Origin: Streptomyces sp. NBC_01244
GTDB lineage: Bacteria > Actinomycetota > Actinomycetes > Streptomycetales > Streptomycetaceae
Direction of reading: 5' to 3'
DNA: 64,000 nucleotides
NCBI RefSeq assembly: GCF_035987325.1
Contig: NZ_CP108488.1
Location: 6,572,001-6,636,000 of the forward strand
Part shown: positions 27,050-33,160 of the stretch, piece after piece
Position numbering within the stretch: position 1 is the first letter of the stretch
How the letters are laid out: each line of letters opens with the position of its first letter
Translations under genes and position numbers: made by a program
The notes under the pieces: generated by a model
What the model was told of the DNA's origin: nothing
Database searches by the model: none
Seen by the model: only the letters and a program-made list of their open reading frames with translations

Positions 27050-27122
27050 GTACGGCTGTATAGAACAACTGTGTAGGACGGTCGTGTAGGACGTTTGTCT
27101 TGGACGGGTGTCTTGGCTACCG
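27032..27122. repeat. Seven tandem 13-bp units over a divergent promoter region
   Basis: Units begin at 27032, 27045, 27058, 27071, 27084, 27097 and 27110. The best conserved are GTGTAGGACGGTC and GTGTAGGACGTTT; others are GTCTAGTACGGCT, GTATAGAACAACT and GTCTTGGACGGGT. They fill nearly all the space between the MFS and TetR starts and cover both predicted promoters. A dyad, TCTAGTAC-ggct-GTATAGA, spans units 2-3. A cooperative operator array for the adjacent TetR protein is the likely role. Confidence 0.8.
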
Positions 27123-27123
27123 T
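27095..27123 (+). promoter_or_regulatory. Leaderless promoter of the tetR gene
   Basis: TTGTCT (27095-27100) and TACCGT (27118-27123) are spaced by 17 nt, and the ATG follows 6 nt later at 27130. It lies inside repeat units 5-7, which would allow autoregulation. Confidence 0.65.
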
Positions 27124-27129
27124 GAAGGC

Positions 27130-27726
27130 ATGGGACATCGCGAAGACTTGCTGGAAGGCGCCAAGAAGTGCCTGCTCGAGAAGGGTTTCGTGGGCACGAC
27201 CGCCCGCGACATCGTCAAGGTCTCGGGCGCGAACCTGGCCTCGATCGGCTACCACTACGGCTCCAAGGACGCCCTCATGACGGAGGCGTTCGTCGCCGTC
27301 GTCCAGGAGTGGGGTGACCGGTTCACGGGCGAGGTGGAGGGCGAGGGCGGCTCGCTGGAACGCTTCCGCTCGGTATGGGACGGGGTGCACGCCGGGCGCG
27401 AGGAGTCCGGTCCGATCTGGTCGGCCAGCATGGAGATCGCCCTCGCCGGGGGCCGGATGCCGCAACTGCGCGCGATGCTCGCCGCCTCGCAGGGGGAGGG
27501 GCGCAGGGGGCTGATCTCGATGTTCACCGGCGTACCCGAGGAGGACCTGACGGAGGAGGACCTGCGGACCACCGGCGCCTTCTACCAGGCCCTGCTGAAC
27601 GGGTTCATGCTCCAGTGGCTCTTCGACCCCGCGTCGGCCGCGACCCCGGCGGAACTGACGGAGGGGATGCGGCGGGCGGCGGCCGCGATGGCGAAGACGG
27701 CCTCGGTGGAGGGATCCGCGCCCTGA
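27130..27726 (+). CDS. TetR family regulator
   Basis: 198 residues from ATG 27130. The N-terminal DNA-binding domain reads DLLEGAKKCLLEKGFVGTTA, then VSGANLASIGYHYGSKDAL, the usual helix-turn-helix with the Y-x-Y/H-F-like end of the recognition helix. The C-terminal ligand-binding half is variable, as in the whole family. Divergent placement next to a DHA2 exporter, with the 13-bp array between, suggests drug- or metabolite-induced derepression of the exporter. Confidence 0.92.
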   Translation: MGHREDLLEGAKKCLLEKGFVGTTARDIVKVSGANLASIGYHYGSKDALMTEAFVAVVQEWGDRFTGEVEGEGGSLERFRSVWDGVHAGREESGPIWSASMEIALAGGRMPQLRAMLAASQGEGRRGLISMFTGVPEEDLTEEDLRTTGAFYQALLNGFMLQWLFDPASAATPAELTEGMRRAAAAMAKTASVEGSAP

Positions 27727-27728
27727 CG

Positions 27729-30700
27729 TCAGGGGAGCGTCGGGCCCGGTACCTGCTCACGGCGCGGCGGCGCCTCGCCCAGTACGAGCGCGGCCGCCGC
27801 TGCCCAGGTCACGCGCGCGGAGAGGCGACTGCGGACGTCGGCGATCCGGGCGTAGGCGGATTCCCGGTTGTCGAGACACCGGTTGATCCGCTCGGCCCAC
27901 ACGACGGCGTCCGCTTCGATGTCCATGGTGACCGGCACGATGAGTTCTTCGGCGTCACCGCCCAACTCTTTGCGCAGGAGCTGGGCGAGCCCGCTGTTGC
28001 CACTCACCAGCAGCGGGACACCGCGGATGATGGCCTCGACCCCGATCAGCCCGAACCCCTCCGAGCGGGAGGGCATGATGACCAGACTCGCGCAGCCCAT
28101 GTCCTGGTCCAGCCGGCCGGGGTCCGGCGAGAAGCCGCGCACGGTCACCTCCAGCGCGTGAACTCCCGACCAGCCGATGATTTCGTTCCGCTGGGCCTCG
28201 CCCTCACCCAACAGCGCTCCACGCACCAGGAGTTCCACCGGGTCGGTAGACGCCTTGGTCCGCAGCTCGTGCACCAGGCCGAGGGCGCGGGCCGCCAGAT
28301 CGACACCCTTGAGTCTGGCATCGTCGGTCCGGCCGGCCAGGAGCACCTTGAGCGGAAACCCGGGCGGAGGGGTGCGCGGGGCGGGCAGGACCCCGGGCTG
28401 CAGGTCGAAGCCCGGGTCGAGCTGCAGCGGCGGCAGCACGTCCGCCTCGCAGAGCGCGTTGGAGAAACGCCCGTGCAGACGCGGGCCGATGGCGAAGGTG
28501 CGGTGCGCGGTGGCGGCCAGCTCCCGCTCGATTTCCGTACGGTCCTCCGCGAGTTGGGCCCGGTCCGTGGTGGCGTCGAGCTTGTGCCACTCGATCTCGT
28601 CCGGCGCCATGTGGATGATGTGCAGCCTCCGGGCCTTCGGGAAGCAGTCCTCGTTCAGATGTACGGCTGCCGGTCCGGTGATCCGGCCGTGGCCGATGAT
28701 GAGGTCGGGTTCCACGTCGAGACGGGGACGGCGGGACAGCCTGCCGTACTCGGGAGCGCCGGGCGCACCCGGGTGGCACAGAAGGGTGACGCCCTTGGAC
28801 TCCGCGTCGGCCGACGCGGTCGCGTTCGCTTCGAGCACGGTGCAGAAAACCTGTGCCCCCGCGGCCGCGAGCGCCGTGCACAGGTACCGGTTGAAGGTGC
28901 TCAGCCCGCCGTGGGAGGAGAACCACTCGGTGGCGACGACCAGGACGATGGGTCGCTCGGACAGCAGGCGCGAGGCGATCCCCTCGGCAGACCCGTCATC
29001 GCCGGTGGGCGTGGGTACGTGCGAGGAGGGGGCGGAGCCGGTGGTGCCGTTGTCCCGGAGTGCCCGCAGCAGCGGCCCCTGTGCGGCATGCCGCAGGAAG
29101 CCGACGTCCGGCAACAGGCCGTCGAGCACTCGGCCCGCCACGGCGTGTGTGACGAGGTGCTCGCGGATGTAGGGGTTCGCCGCTCCCCAGTCGCGCTCAC
29201 CGGAAGCGGTGAGCGGTACCTGCCGTATGAGGGCCAGCGCCACGCGGCGGTGCCGTTCCCGGTCCTGACCGGCAGGCCGCAGGTACTCCGCGAAGGTCTG
29301 GTGGAAGAACCGGTAGACGGTGGCGCCGTGTTGCCGGTCTTCGACGATGAGCCCGTGGCGCTGTGCGACAAGGTCCCGCACGTCCTCGTCCGTGCAAGGT
29401 TCGTCCGAGAGTGCTTCGGCCACCGGAGCCCAGAGCTCGGGCGGCAGCCCCGCTCCCTGGGCGTAGGCGAGGGGCAAGAGGAGGTGGGCGGAGGGGGCCC
29501 GGCGGGCGTCGCCGTGTGAGCCGCGTCCGGCGTAGCTCTCGTACAACTCCTCGATGGTCGGGACGGAGCCCGGCGACCGCTCCGCCGTCCCGCCGCCGTC
29601 CACCATGGCGTGGACCGCCAACTGTGCGACGAGGAAGGAGCCCTGTGCACGCCGGGCGATGGCCGCTGCATCGGTCCTGGCGCGGGCCGGGTCGGCGGCG
29701 TAGAGGAGTGAACGCCGCGCGTGCGGCACGGTCGCCTCGCCCAGCAGCATGCGGTAGGCGTACTGCTCGAGATCGGCGTCGTCCCGGTAGGGCGGCTCGT
29801 CGAGGTCGATGACTCTGACGGCCGGGCCGAGCCGGGCCACCTCGTGCGGGCGTGCGCCGATGACCAGCCGTACCCCCGGAAGGGGACTCAACGGCCGGAT
29901 CAATTCGGCGACGAGCCGGTCGCCGTCCGGAGCCTCGTCGAGCCCGTCGAGGATGATCACGAGGGGGTCGGTGCGTGCGCCGAGCGCCGCGAACACGTCG
30001 TGACGGTCCGAGGCCGCCGGCAGGGCGAGCGCTGCCGCGAGTCTCGCGGTGATGTCGGCAGGAGTGGTCGTACGGCAGCTCAGCGCGATGAGGGCCGCAT
30101 CCGGCGGCGTCGACACCGTGGGCGGGAGGCTCAGCCTGGCCGCACTGTCGGGGTCCATGAGCAGGATGAGACGGCCGAGCAGCGCGGACTTGCCGCTGCC
30201 CGCAGCGCCTGTGACGACGAGCGTCTCGTTGTCACCGCCAGGCGCATCGAGCCAGTCGGTGAGCGCGTTCAATGCAGCCAGACGCCCGACGAAGAAGTCA
30301 CCCTCGACCGACGCGTGCGCCACGCCCCGACCGGGCGGCGTGAAGTGGTCGTCCTGTTCCCGGCGGAGTCGCACGACGCTGGAGATGTCGAGCTCATCGG
30401 GTGGAAGGCCGGGAACGTAGGCCGGATTGGGGAAGAACGGGTCCTCCTCCCCGTACGTCGTCGTGCCGAACGCCTGGAACAGGTCGGACGCGCGGAGCCG
30501 CTCCCGCACGCCCTCCGCCACCGACCGGATGCTGAGGAAGCGCTGGCGCCTGTCGACCGGTGGTCCGGTGAGAACCTCCTGCAGCGCCCGCGTGAACGTG
30601 CTGCTCTCCGCGCGTTCGCCGTCCCGCGCGGAGCTGAGCACCCAGGCATTGCCCTCCGACGGCCGGGTACTCCCCGGAAGGAAGGCCGAAGCGGTCGTGT

Positions 30701-31847
30701 CCCTCGCGGTGGAGGCGCCGCTCCAACAGGCATTGAGGAGGATGAGCGAATGCCCGGCCAGATCGTCCGTCACCAGGGTGGTGAAATCGTCCAGGGTGAT
30801 GGCTGAGTGCCGGAAGAACCGATCGTCGTCGTCCGAGCAGAGCAAGTACTGCCGGCCGCCGTGCCGGACGCCGTGACCGGCGAAGTACGCGACCAGGACG
30901 TCGTCCGGTCCCAGCCGCTGCTCCCTGCTCCACCTGTCCAGACCAGCACGCAGTTCGGCCGAGGTCGGATTGAGCGACACCTCGGACAGGACGCGCTCGT
31001 AACCCATCGGGCCGAGGACGTCGTCGAGGCGCTGTACGTCGTCCACCGCCCCGGGGAGGTCCGGCAGGCCCGACGAATACCGTGAGACTCCCACGAGGAT
31101 CGCGTAGCGGCGCCCCGAAACGCCTTCGGCCTTCGGTCGGTGCCTGCGCAGCGCCGCCACCATCAGCGAGGCCGCCCGCTCGGCGGCGCGCTCCTGCGCA
31201 CCCGGGGCGGCGGACTTGTGCGCGGCATCGGCGTGGTCGCTGATGCCCCGGATCACCACGACGTCCAACGGGCCGTTCAGGTCAGCCGCGTGGGCCGGCC
31301 CGGAGCCCTCCATGTCGATCGCGACGACGTCGTTGTGGTTGCGGCGTATGAACCGGGAGATCTCGGATTCAGGGTCCGCCAGGGCCGCGTCCCCCGTGGC
31401 GATCGGCCTGAAGTGCGCCCGTACGTCGGGCATGTCCCGCACGGCGGAACGGACCGACTGTTCGAGCGCGCGCGAACCCCCGAGGGGCTTCGGCCGGACC
31501 GGGAAACCCTCGGGTGTCCGCCCGCCGTGGACCTCGTACACCCGCGTGCTCACGACGACGTCCCCGATCCCGACATCGTCCTTCACACTGGCGGCGATAC
31601 CGACGAAGAACACGGCCTCGGGGTTGAGCCAGTTGACGAGTCCTGTGGTCAGAGAAGCCGCCCGGCCCTCGCCCACCCCCAGTTCGCCGATGGCGACATG
31701 CCAGGGGGTGCCGGGCAGCCGGCCCCGCTCGACCCGGGTCCCGTCAGGGTGGACGAGCTCCTGCCACTGCTCGAGCTGCGCGCGGACAGCGGCGTATTCA
31801 AGGGGGAGTGCGGTCAGGACGAGAACAGTGGGCTGAGTCTCGGGCAC
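27729..31847 (-). CDS. Nucleosidase-caspase-NACHT NTPase-glycosyltransferase fusion
   Basis: 1372 residues from GTG 31847. Domain 1 (about 1-235) is an MTA/SAH-nucleosidase-like fold: TALPLEYAAV (Glu17), AIDMEG (Glu180), GISDHAD (Asp204). Domain 2 (about 245-475) is a caspase-like (C14) protease with AYFAGHGV (His325) and LLNACWSGA (Cys374). Domain 3 (about 515-930) is a NACHT/STAND NTPase: Walker A GAAGSGKSALL (547-557), Walker B LVIILDGLDEA, then a helical arm with YRFFHQTFAEYL. Domain 4 (about 965-1355) is a GT-B glycosyltransferase family 4 domain with SSHGGLSTFNRYL and PSRSEGFGLIGVEAI. GGAG is unusually close to the GTG. Such proteins act in defence or regulated cell death. The exact combination is not one I recognise. 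Confidence 0.85.
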   Translation of the reverse strand: MPETQPTVLVLTALPLEYAAVRAQLEQWQELVHPDGTRVERGRLPGTPWHVAIGELGVGEGRAASLTTGLVNWLNPEAVFFVGIAASVKDDVGIGDVVVSTRVYEVHGGRTPEGFPVRPKPLGGSRALEQSVRSAVRDMPDVRAHFRPIATGDAALADPESEISRFIRRNHNDVVAIDMEGSGPAHAADLNGPLDVVVIRGISDHADAAHKSAAPGAQERAAERAASLMVAALRRHRPKAEGVSGRRYAILVGVSRYSSGLPDLPGAVDDVQRLDDVLGPMGYERVLSEVSLNPTSAELRAGLDRWSREQRLGPDDVLVAYFAGHGVRHGGRQYLLCSDDDDRFFRHSAITLDDFTTLVTDDLAGHSLILLNACWSGASTARDTTASAFLPGSTRPSEGNAWVLSSARDGERAESSTFTRALQEVLTGPPVDRRQRFLSIRSVAEGVRERLRASDLFQAFGTTTYGEEDPFFPNPAYVPGLPPDELDISSVVRLRREQDDHFTPPGRGVAHASVEGDFFVGRLAALNALTDWLDAPGGDNETLVVTGAAGSGKSALLGRLILLMDPDSAARLSLPPTVSTPPDAALIALSCRTTTPADITARLAAALALPAASDRHDVFAALGARTDPLVIILDGLDEAPDGDRLVAELIRPLSPLPGVRLVIGARPHEVARLGPAVRVIDLDEPPYRDDADLEQYAYRMLLGEATVPHARRSLLYAADPARARTDAAAIARRAQGSFLVAQLAVHAMVDGGGTAERSPGSVPTIEELYESYAGRGSHGDARRAPSAHLLLPLAYAQGAGLPPELWAPVAEALSDEPCTDEDVRDLVAQRHGLIVEDRQHGATVYRFFHQTFAEYLRPAGQDRERHRRVALALIRQVPLTASGERDWGAANPYIREHLVTHAVAGRVLDGLLPDVGFLRHAAQGPLLRALRDNGTTGSAPSSHVPTPTGDDGSAEGIASRLLSERPIVLVVATEWFSSHGGLSTFNRYLCTALAAAGAQVFCTVLEANATASADAESKGVTLLCHPGAPGAPEYGRLSRRPRLDVEPDLIIGHGRITGPAAVHLNEDCFPKARRLHIIHMAPDEIEWHKLDATTDRAQLAEDRTEIERELAATAHRTFAIGPRLHGRFSNALCEADVLPPLQLDPGFDLQPGVLPAPRTPPPGFPLKVLLAGRTDDARLKGVDLAARALGLVHELRTKASTDPVELLVRGALLGEGEAQRNEIIGWSGVHALEVTVRGFSPDPGRLDQDMGCASLVIMPSRSEGFGLIGVEAIIRGVPLLVSGNSGLAQLLRKELGGDAEELIVPVTMDIEADAVVWAERINRCLDNRESAYARIADVRSRLSARVTWAAAAALVLGEAPPRREQVPGPTLP

Positions 31848-31900
31848 ACTCCTACGGTACCGGCCGAGCAGGGGGTCAGGCGCCCGACCGGGAAGCCGAA

Positions 31901-33160
31901 CTAGCCGTGCAGGCGGGCGGCCTTGAGGGCCATGTGGAGGAGCAGGCGGTCCTCGCCCTCGTCCAGGTCGAGGCCGGTCAGCTGCTCCACCCGGGACAGG
32001 CGGTAGTACAGGGTCTGGCGGTGGATGCCCAGGGCCGCCGCCGCGCGGCCCGCCTGGCCGGCGCAGTCCAGGAACACCTCGGCGGTCCGGGCCAGTTCGG
32101 GGTTGGCAGGGCCGCGCAGGGCGCGGGCCACCGGGTCGTCGAGGGCTTCCTCGGCGACGGAGGCCAGCATGCGGTAGGGCCCGATCGCGGACCACTGCGC
32201 GACCGGGCCGAGCCGCGGCCCCGCGGCGGCGGCCCGGGCGGCGGCGGTGGCCTGCTGCCAGGCGGCGGGCAGTGCCGTGAGCGCCCGCACGGGGTCGGAC
32301 ACCCCGGCGGTCACCCCGGCGGTCACTCCGTTGGCCGCCGCGGGGGTGGCGGGCTTGGCGCCGGCCGCGGCCGCCGAGGCCGTCCCGCCGCCCGTGCGGG
32401 GCATCAGGCGGGAGATCGCCGTGAGCGCCGGAGCCAGCGGGTCCGTGCCGCGCAGGCGGATCAGGATCGCGAGGGACTGCCCCGCCGGGCCGCCGCCGTC
32501 CGGGTGGGGTTCCTGCTCGCCGGCCCCCCGCCAGGGCACCACGCAGACGGCCGCCGCCCCCGGGACCGAAGCCGGGGCCTCGCCGGACCACGGGCTCACG
32601 CAGACCGCGGCGTGCGGTCCTTCGCCGCCCGGACCGAGCGCCACCCGTAGCGCGGCCACCGCCATGTCCTGCTGCCAACCGCGCCCGGCGGTGAGCACCG
32701 CGAGGAACTCCCGGGACAGGTCGGCCCCCGCCCGGGCCTCCTCCGCGAGCAGCAGCCCGATCCGCTGGGCCACCTCCATGGCGGCGGCCAGGGACTCCGC
32801 GTCGGGGCCGGGGTCCTGGTCGAGGAGCCATACGTAGCCCTGGACGATCCCGCGGTGGCGCACCGGCAGGCAGATCCGCCCCCGGAAGACTCCGGCGTCC
32901 GGGGCGGCCGGGATCCTGACCGGGCCGGTGGCGCGGGCGATGCCGAAGCCCTCGAACCAGGACCGGACGGCCGCCGTCGACTGGCGGGTCATGATCGAGC
33001 GGGTCCGTACGGGGTCCAGGGCCAGCTCGCCGTCGAAGCTGTCGCTGTCGTGCGCGCCGAAGGCGATCAGCCGGAAGTCGCGGTTCTCCAGCGTCGCCGG
33101 AGCGCCGAGCAGCGCCGAGATCTCGTCCACCAGGTCCTGGTAATCGCCCTTCACCCGCAC
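31901..33160 (-). CDS. PucR-type regulator, probably of proline catabolism
   Basis: 419 residues from the minus-strand start at 33160. The C terminus is the PucR helix-turn-helix: [20 protein letters not shown], then [19 protein letters not shown]. The N-terminal 150 residues resemble a sensor (PucR/CdaR-like) domain. A long Ala/Gly-rich linker with VTAGVTAGV repeats lies at about residue 280-310. It is divergent from the proline dehydrogenase gene, and PucR-type activators control that operon in Streptomyces, so proline-responsive activation is likely. Confidence 0.9.

Follow-up and report, generated by a model that had tools for sequence, protein, structure and literature searches.

Domain architecture of the protein

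A gene on the minus strand of Streptomyces sp. NBC_01244 (27729..31847 of the 64,000-nucleotide stretch analysed here, hereafter the window) encodes a protein of 1372 residues, in which a PNP nucleosidase domain, a caspase-fold domain, a NACHT NTPase, a helical/winged-helix region and a C-terminal GT4 glycosyltransferase follow one another in one chain. An initial annotation of this DNA had proposed the four domains, with Glu180, Cys374 and the Walker motifs as key residues, in an immune-type protein around a central NTPase switch. Profile searches of each part, which it had suggested, place all four domains above their Pfam cut-offs, and the named residues are found in the translation, the active-site residues being intact in all four domains. 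The domain order supports a layout resembling that of NOD-like receptors (NLRs).

The gene starts with GTG at 31847 and stops at 27729, with a single open frame free of internal stops and no split into separate genes by frameshift. The relatives P0004-P0007 start at the corresponding residue, and P0008 carries a 12-residue N-terminal extension. A longer open reading frame (ORF) of 1813 residues, reaching 33170, is not the gene, because the codon-position GC content changes upstream of 31847: at positions 1/2/3 it is 0.75/0.52/0.87 within the gene, with position 3 at 0.83-0.89 over the full length, and 0.95/0.78/0.58 in the same frame upstream. The one open frame, together with five other proteins with the same chain, rules out a frameshift-joined artefact. 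Since these five share the chain at 64-87% identity, a chance joining of four domains is excluded as well.

The PNP_UDP_1 domain, of the MTA/SAH-nucleosidase-like (methylthioadenosine/S-adenosylhomocysteine) type, spans residues 8-233 (31149..31826, minus strand as for every feature of this gene; 98.9 bits, cut-off 25.1), and its nearest solved chains by sequence are MTA/SAH nucleosidases. Glu17, Glu180 (31308..31310, in a D-M-E motif) and Asp204, which we take to be the functional residues of a PNP/MTAN-type nucleosidase, are all present in the window copy. The caspase-fold Peptidase_C14 domain follows at residues 246-451 (30495..31112; 63.1 bits, cut-off 21.4), with the dyad of a C14 peptidase formed by His325 (30873..30875) and Cys374 (30726..30728, within LNACWSG). 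An Asp two residues before the catalytic Cys belongs to the S1 pocket of metacaspases. Codon 372 (30732-30734) encodes Asn where Asp stands in at least 90% of the alignment, so that the domain is not classed as a metacaspase-type C14 domain, and this may shift the cleavage preference. A caspase cleavage site just before the GT4 domain was also considered and set aside: a stretch ending in Arg at residue 963 is frequent, not constant, and borders the first GT4 strand.

The NACHT domain (residues 542-673; 29829..30224; 37.4 bits, cut-off 26.7) has both the Walker A motif GAAGSGKS (residues 547-554; 30186..30209) and a Walker B region (residues 629-638; 29934..29963) that ends in LDGLDE, within a stretch IILDGLDEA beginning at residue 631; a NACHT domain with both motifs places the protein in the NACHT/STAND (signal transduction ATPases with numerous domains) group. 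Residues 701-935 (29043..29747) form a region common to relatives tailed with WD40 repeats, which we infer to be winged-helix/helical and which matches no Pfam model. A variable linker follows (residues 936-964; 28956..29042), and BLAST homology to the WD40-tailed relatives ends here or earlier in four of five cases, P0031 being the exception, with homology up to residue 1113.

The C-terminal domain (residues 969-1353; 27789..28943) had been annotated as Glycos_transf_1, a profile that it does pass (32.9 bits, cut-off 26.4); its specific family, however, is the GT4-conflict family PF20706, which it matches with 454.5 bits. The PF20706 cut-off of 26 is loose, being exceeded in 14 of 14 control genomes, so that the score is what counts: only two of the 12 matches in the own genome lie above 380 bits, and the next one reaches 76. 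The nearest structures are MshA and BshA. R1173, K1180, E1263 and E1271 align with their counterparts in sucrose-phosphate synthase (6kih) and presumably constitute the Arg/Lys pair and the EX7E motif (28035..28061) of a retaining GT-B active site. At its C terminus the protein has an enzyme fold that retains its catalytic residues. Altogether, 16 Pfam families match the chain at E up to 1.

Structure prediction, also suggested in the initial annotation, was informative in part. In the model of residues 1-960, caspase-fold MALT1 chains and Apaf-1/CED-4-like folds are among the Foldseek matches, but with a mean pLDDT (predicted local distance difference test) of 71.2, a pTM (predicted template modelling score) of 0.48 and a pLDDT under 50 across much of the C-terminal half of the PNP domain, the model does not support the PNP geometry or the domain arrangement.

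Relatives with and without the PNP domain

A search covered 5.8 billion proteins and returned 63 matches among the 8000 best candidates scored. The full PNP-caspase-NACHT-GT4 chain is present in six of the matches listed: the window's own protein (P0003), the metagenome proteins P0004 and P0008, and proteins from three named Streptomyces, P0005 (NPDC056773), P0006 (TBY4) and P0007 (NPDC006450). The same chain without PNP is found in at least 22 relatives (P0009-P0029 and P0066), with P0030 as a partial record. In P0021-P0029 and P0066 the linkers before GT4 are long and rich in Asp and Glu, with stretches like TDED and ADED, and the PNP-bearing group has none of these. A pseudogene reading of one relative, recorded with one TGA (G012), was dismissed: its ORF (L110) is open over 1156 residues, and the stop is taken as the gene's own end.

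A search with the GT4 domain only gave 292 matches, 120 of them listed. In a phmmer map of the relatives collected, GT4 lies near the C-terminal end, except in P0064, where it is N-terminal with TPRs at the opposite end, and in P0065, where it is internal. An unusual partner is seen in the metagenome protein P0045, in which an Hsp70 chain (residues 2-492) is joined to GT4-conflict (543-926). At E up to 1e-60 the GT4 domain occurs in 26 of 392 Streptomyces genomes, the own genome included, and exceeds 75% identity in only two of those 26, the own genome and TBY4. The own genome encodes a second GT4-conflict protein near 512514, a TIR-GT4 protein of 755 residues (L117:5506-7773), adjoined by a second TIR-bearing gene of 754 residues (L117:7839-10103); the pair looks like a two-gene system. 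Near 1047000 (L118:1797-6833) it also encodes an NTPase-WD40 protein of 1678 residues with 34% identity to part of the caspase-NACHT region.

The GT4 domain is the most constrained module in most comparisons

The mean pairwise identity within the PNP-bearing group rises from 59% in PNP and 66% in caspase to 76% in NACHT, 73% in the region that follows and 81% in GT4. In two other groups, caspase averages 61 and 64% and GT4 79 and 88%, so that GT4 is highest in all three. The ratio of nonsynonymous to synonymous substitution rates (dN/dS) points in the same direction. Between the window gene and its TBY4 counterpart it is 1.17 for PNP (bootstrap 0.84-1.72), about 0.86-0.88 for caspase, 0.46 for NACHT, 0.80 for the next region and 0.35 for GT4 (0.26-0.48), at similar dS (0.29-0.36); these are Nei-Gojobori counts uncorrected for codon bias, in which only contrasts between domains of one gene are to be trusted. 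The GT4 value is the lowest in six of six pairs (0.10-0.37), which share members and in some of which the GT4 interval overlaps that of other domains. Seven flanking genes have values of 0.01-0.33 against TBY4, and PNP and caspase lie above this range.

The residues tell a similar story. H1079, K1180, E1263 and E1271 are found in 135 of 135 GT4-bearing proteins and R1173 in 134, other conserved GT4 positions being looser (E1084, for example, in 124 of 135). Among 36 locus sequences, H1079, R1173, K1180 and E1271 are invariant, and E1263 is kept in 35, with Asp in L011. In an alignment of 28 caspase-NACHT-GT4 proteins, all seven GT4 residues checked are present in every member. Judged from these comparisons, the data suggest that GT4 is the module most closely guarded by evolution, the pair of the window protein and P0004 being the exception. 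In 42 GT4 relatives outside the caspase group, picked by hand, 33 Pfam families were found, and the 25 most frequent of them include no caspase, PNP, TIR or nuclease family.

Erosion of the PNP and caspase domains

Position 180 of the PNP domain is Glu in two of the six PNP-bearing proteins, the window protein and P0007; it is Ala in P0004, Lys in P0005, Gln in P0006 and Asp in P0008. Outside this architecture Glu180 is kept in 42 of 44 readable PNP rows and Asp204 in 41 of 44. If Glu180 is never regained, the PNP tree requires at least three losses of it (P0004; P0005/P0006; P0008). The same tendency is seen across 23 PNP positions that are at least 95% conserved outside the architecture, all of which are intact in the window protein alone; the number broken is two in P0004, four in P0008, five in P0007 and six in both P0005 and P0006. 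By comparison, 12 control rows out of 47 outside the architecture break zero or one each, with the limits that these 12 helped to define the 23 positions and that a few proteins account for two of the 47 rows each. The window copy looks competent, and the relatives suggest that PNP activity can be dispensed with.

The caspase dyad is complete in 25 of the 28 aligned proteins (His in 26, Cys in 27). Half of it is lost in three PNP-less members, P0012 (C to S) and P0019 and P0020 (both H to Y), all of which keep the GT4 residues. From such substitutions, the two front enzymes look replaceable. In the metagenome protein P0169 the PNP motifs are intact, the caspase-fold region lacks both His and Cys, and the chain continues with an NTPase and a tail of WD40 repeats; it reads as the mirror image of the PNP erosion.

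Assembly of the chain and its genomic site

A midpoint-rooted caspase-NACHT tree of 29 rows unites all 23 GT4-tailed rows in a clade (100/100) to which five WD40-tailed rows and P0056 do not belong; nested within that clade, the six PNP-bearing proteins make up a clade of their own (100/100). The six PNP domains likewise group in a single clade (100/97) beside the PNP of P0047, which rules out separate acquisitions. The simplest history that these trees would allow has a single joining of GT4 to a caspase-NACHT protein, followed by a single addition of PNP. From the GT4 tree, which has long branches, P0064 among them, only the caspase-linked clade was used.

The gene lies between a PucR-type regulator (31901..33160, minus) and a TetR-type regulator (27100..27726, plus), neither of which is counted in the system. 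Proline-catabolism genes follow on the PucR side, and genes for a major facilitator superfamily (MFS) transporter, serA, ilvC and ilvB on the TetR side. No defence or mobile-element gene was recognised among ten neighbouring ORFs scanned, one of which has no Pfam family, and a scan for sigma-70-type promoters found none. Of 150 genomes searched, 137 have a PucR match, and the loci of the best 30 were compared over 1.5 kb each. The 29 besides the window's show TetR in 17 and the focal gene in none within that distance. The PucR and TetR matches overlap or lie less than 200 bases apart in 10 of those 17; other ORFs separate them in L108, L109 and L111, and about 1 kb with no ORF passing the filter does so in L107. 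The PucR-TetR interval (27727-31900) is a small variable site among core genes, which can be closed or hold other ORFs or the focal gene.

In TBY4 a copy occupies the corresponding site. At the amino-acid level, serA, ilvC, proline dehydrogenase and pyrroline-5-carboxylate dehydrogenase are 95-99.7% identical to their TBY4 counterparts, compared with 94% in MFS, 90% in PucR, 78% in TetR and 68% in the focal protein. Because dS is raised in the focal gene (0.32) and TetR (0.39) alike, compared with 0.07-0.17 in six other flanking genes, the divergence may stem from recombinational exchange of this stretch as well as from rapid change in place. The TBY4 copy is perhaps not an ortholog by strictly vertical descent.

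No partner gene is common to eight hand-picked PNP-less loci, compared with a home-made gene caller that missed the focal gene in L032; PNP-bearing loci were left out. L033 and L113, from one clade, have two neighbours in common and L033 and L110 one gene, with no other recurrence. This comparison of PNP-less loci speaks against a partner gene, and the gene looks like a single-gene system.

Discussion

We favour the view that the window protein is a stand-alone NLR-like (STAND/NACHT) conflict protein with GT4 as its indispensable enzyme and probably its main output, and hold it with about even confidence. GT4 is preferred for this role because the caspase-broken PNP-less members keep it and because the sampled GT4 relatives have no other common effector; its N-terminal placement in P0064 also counts in favour. 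The section on such fusions in Kaur et al. (2021, PMC8195603) proposes GT4 as an effector with a counter-invader role, and describes its recurrence in bacterial conflict systems and in immune proteins of marine animals. Activation, oligomerisation, donor, target, phenotype and the defence role as such are what we infer. An invasion-linked signal would release the NACHT switch, which would bind ATP and oligomerise, so that the caspase and PNP domains at the N terminus come together and the C-terminal GT4 is unleashed. The latter would then take sugar from a nucleotide-sugar donor and attach it to a conserved target within the infected cell, or drain the donor, and infection would be halted through arrest or killing of the cell. 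PNP and caspase would be stacked, partly redundant effectors, so that either could be lost and GT4 could not.

Several points weigh against this proposal. Characterised bacterial STAND proteins carry their sensor at the C terminus, as set out in passages of PMC12169576 and PMC10907252, and the same caspase-NACHT core bears C-terminal WD40 repeats in P0031-P0033, P0051 and P0052. A sensor that reads its ligand through an active site would equally show catalytic conservation. In the 28 aligned proteins the NTPase residues are no less invariant than those of GT4, the five checked (Gly550, Lys553, D634, D637 and E638) being present in all, and in the pair of the window protein and P0004 the GT4 identity is the lowest (84.5%, other domains 85-90%). 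PNP decay is not complete, because Glu17 and Asp204 are kept in six of six proteins. Literature searches brought up no member for which an activity, a donor, an acceptor or a phage phenotype is described, and no experimental study of a STAND-GT4 protein was recognised among the matches listed.

Two facts pull apart: GT4 occupies the position where sensors sit, and its constraint is that of an enzyme that is retained. It is possible, though doubtful, that GT4 is itself the sensor, whose intact active site would read a glycan, a sugar nucleotide or some glycosylated product of the phage, with caspase and PNP as the effectors. The shared caspase-NACHT part would fit, given that homology to the WD40-tailed proteins mostly stops at or before the linker, and so would P0047, in which PNP precedes NB-ARC and TPRs. 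P0169, having lost the caspase residues and kept PNP, fits two redundant front effectors, and the position of GT4 is comparable to that of lectin domains in the fusions section of Kaur et al. (PMC8195603). Such an arrangement, however, would leave P0012, P0019 and P0020 with a GT4 sensor and no recognised intact N-terminal effector, as it would the 42 sampled relatives with no other common effector family. C-terminal STAND sensors are moreover described in a passage of PMC10907252 as highly variable, whereas GT4 is the slowest part in most comparisons; as a sensor it would have to monitor a conserved molecule, in the manner of a guard, not a fast-changing phage protein.

This last idea can be carried further, into a scenario that we consider unlikely. 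The polarity of the NLR would then be unsettled: a catalytic GT4 in the sensor slot would use its active enzyme site to guard a conserved state of the cell's own sugar nucleotides or glycans, so that invasion is registered as a metabolite change, and PNP and caspase would be interchangeable executioners that decay reciprocally. If true, this would be a metabolite-guarding NLR that senses by catalysis.

The initial annotation had let PNP and caspase do the damage, with GT4 as an accessory modifier. All four active sites do look intact in the window copy, whose PNP breaks none of the 23 positions; the caspase dyad is complete in most members, and a table in PMC10952713 lists PNP domains of defence systems, NLR-like ones included, as degrading (d)ATP. 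Yet Glu180 is lost in four of six proteins and a caspase residue in three of 28, compared with none of seven GT4 residues, which makes this division of labour improbable. PNP in particular fits poorly as a main effector, being the least constrained module in most comparisons. Very improbable, finally, is a regulated glycosyltransferase of metabolism or development that is built like an NLR by happenstance, which would suit neighbours such as PucR, proline catabolism, serA and ilv and the nearest structures, MshA and BshA, as enzymes of low-molecular-weight thiol synthesis, but not the patchy distribution (26 of 392 genomes), the relatives in which PucR directly adjoins TetR or is separated from it by other ORFs, or dN/dS values of PNP (1.17) and caspase (0.86) above those of the flanking genes.

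The family offers a natural experiment, in which a single NACHT core is combined with two front enzymes, each decaying in lineages of its own, and with a tail that keeps its catalytic residues. The contrast between modules bears on sensor versus effector for the GT4 group and on the redundancy of stacked NLR-like effectors, and which end detects and which acts is directly testable in one gene.

Comparison with known systems

Three known arrangements were considered and rejected. A Cap17-type ATP nucleosidase is accompanied by a SLOG domain (PF18178) in the account given in PMC10952713, and PF18178 is absent from the 16 Pfam families that match the chain. For the EACC1-caspase two-gene system, NF047832 scores 83.3 bits against a cut-off of 140, and the upstream gene is PucR. 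The nSTAND2 two-gene GT4 operon of Kaur et al. (2021) does not apply either, the flanks being PucR and TetR and the chain having no nSTAND2 match.

Closer likenesses each cover part of the chain. The actinobacterial caspase-NACHT-WD40 proteins share its core at 33-41% identity but have WD40 repeats in place of GT4. P0047 and P0151, with the source name SAV_2336 N-terminal domain-related, share the PNP domain at 67-69% identity; unlike the window protein, they have a TPR tail with no caspase or GT4 match and, in P0047, an NB-ARC switch. MshA and BshA are free-standing enzymes, unlike the fused GT4, with 13-20% identity in those alignments. The tripartite layout around a NACHT/STAND switch is also that of bNACHT and Avs in the passages on them (PMC12169576, PMC10907252), where a sensor role is ascribed to the C terminus and defence is demonstrated; both would be putative in the window protein.

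The nearest known group is that of the STAND NTPase-GT4 fusions (Kaur et al. 2021, PMC8195603), which likewise have a C-terminal GT4 on a NACHT/STAND core and, in a subset, an N-terminal caspase. The four-domain chain had initially been taken as one not recognised. This holds for the pairing of PNP with caspase, which section 15 of that paper does not name, its N-terminal additions being TIR and caspase; it does not hold for the rest, since caspase/TIR-STAND-GT4 fusions are described there and a Pfam family exists. By its domains, the chain belongs to these fusions, with the PNP addition as its variant part. Differing constraint among modules is not discussed in that section, and what our analysis adds is that the modules of one chain appear to be under different constraint.

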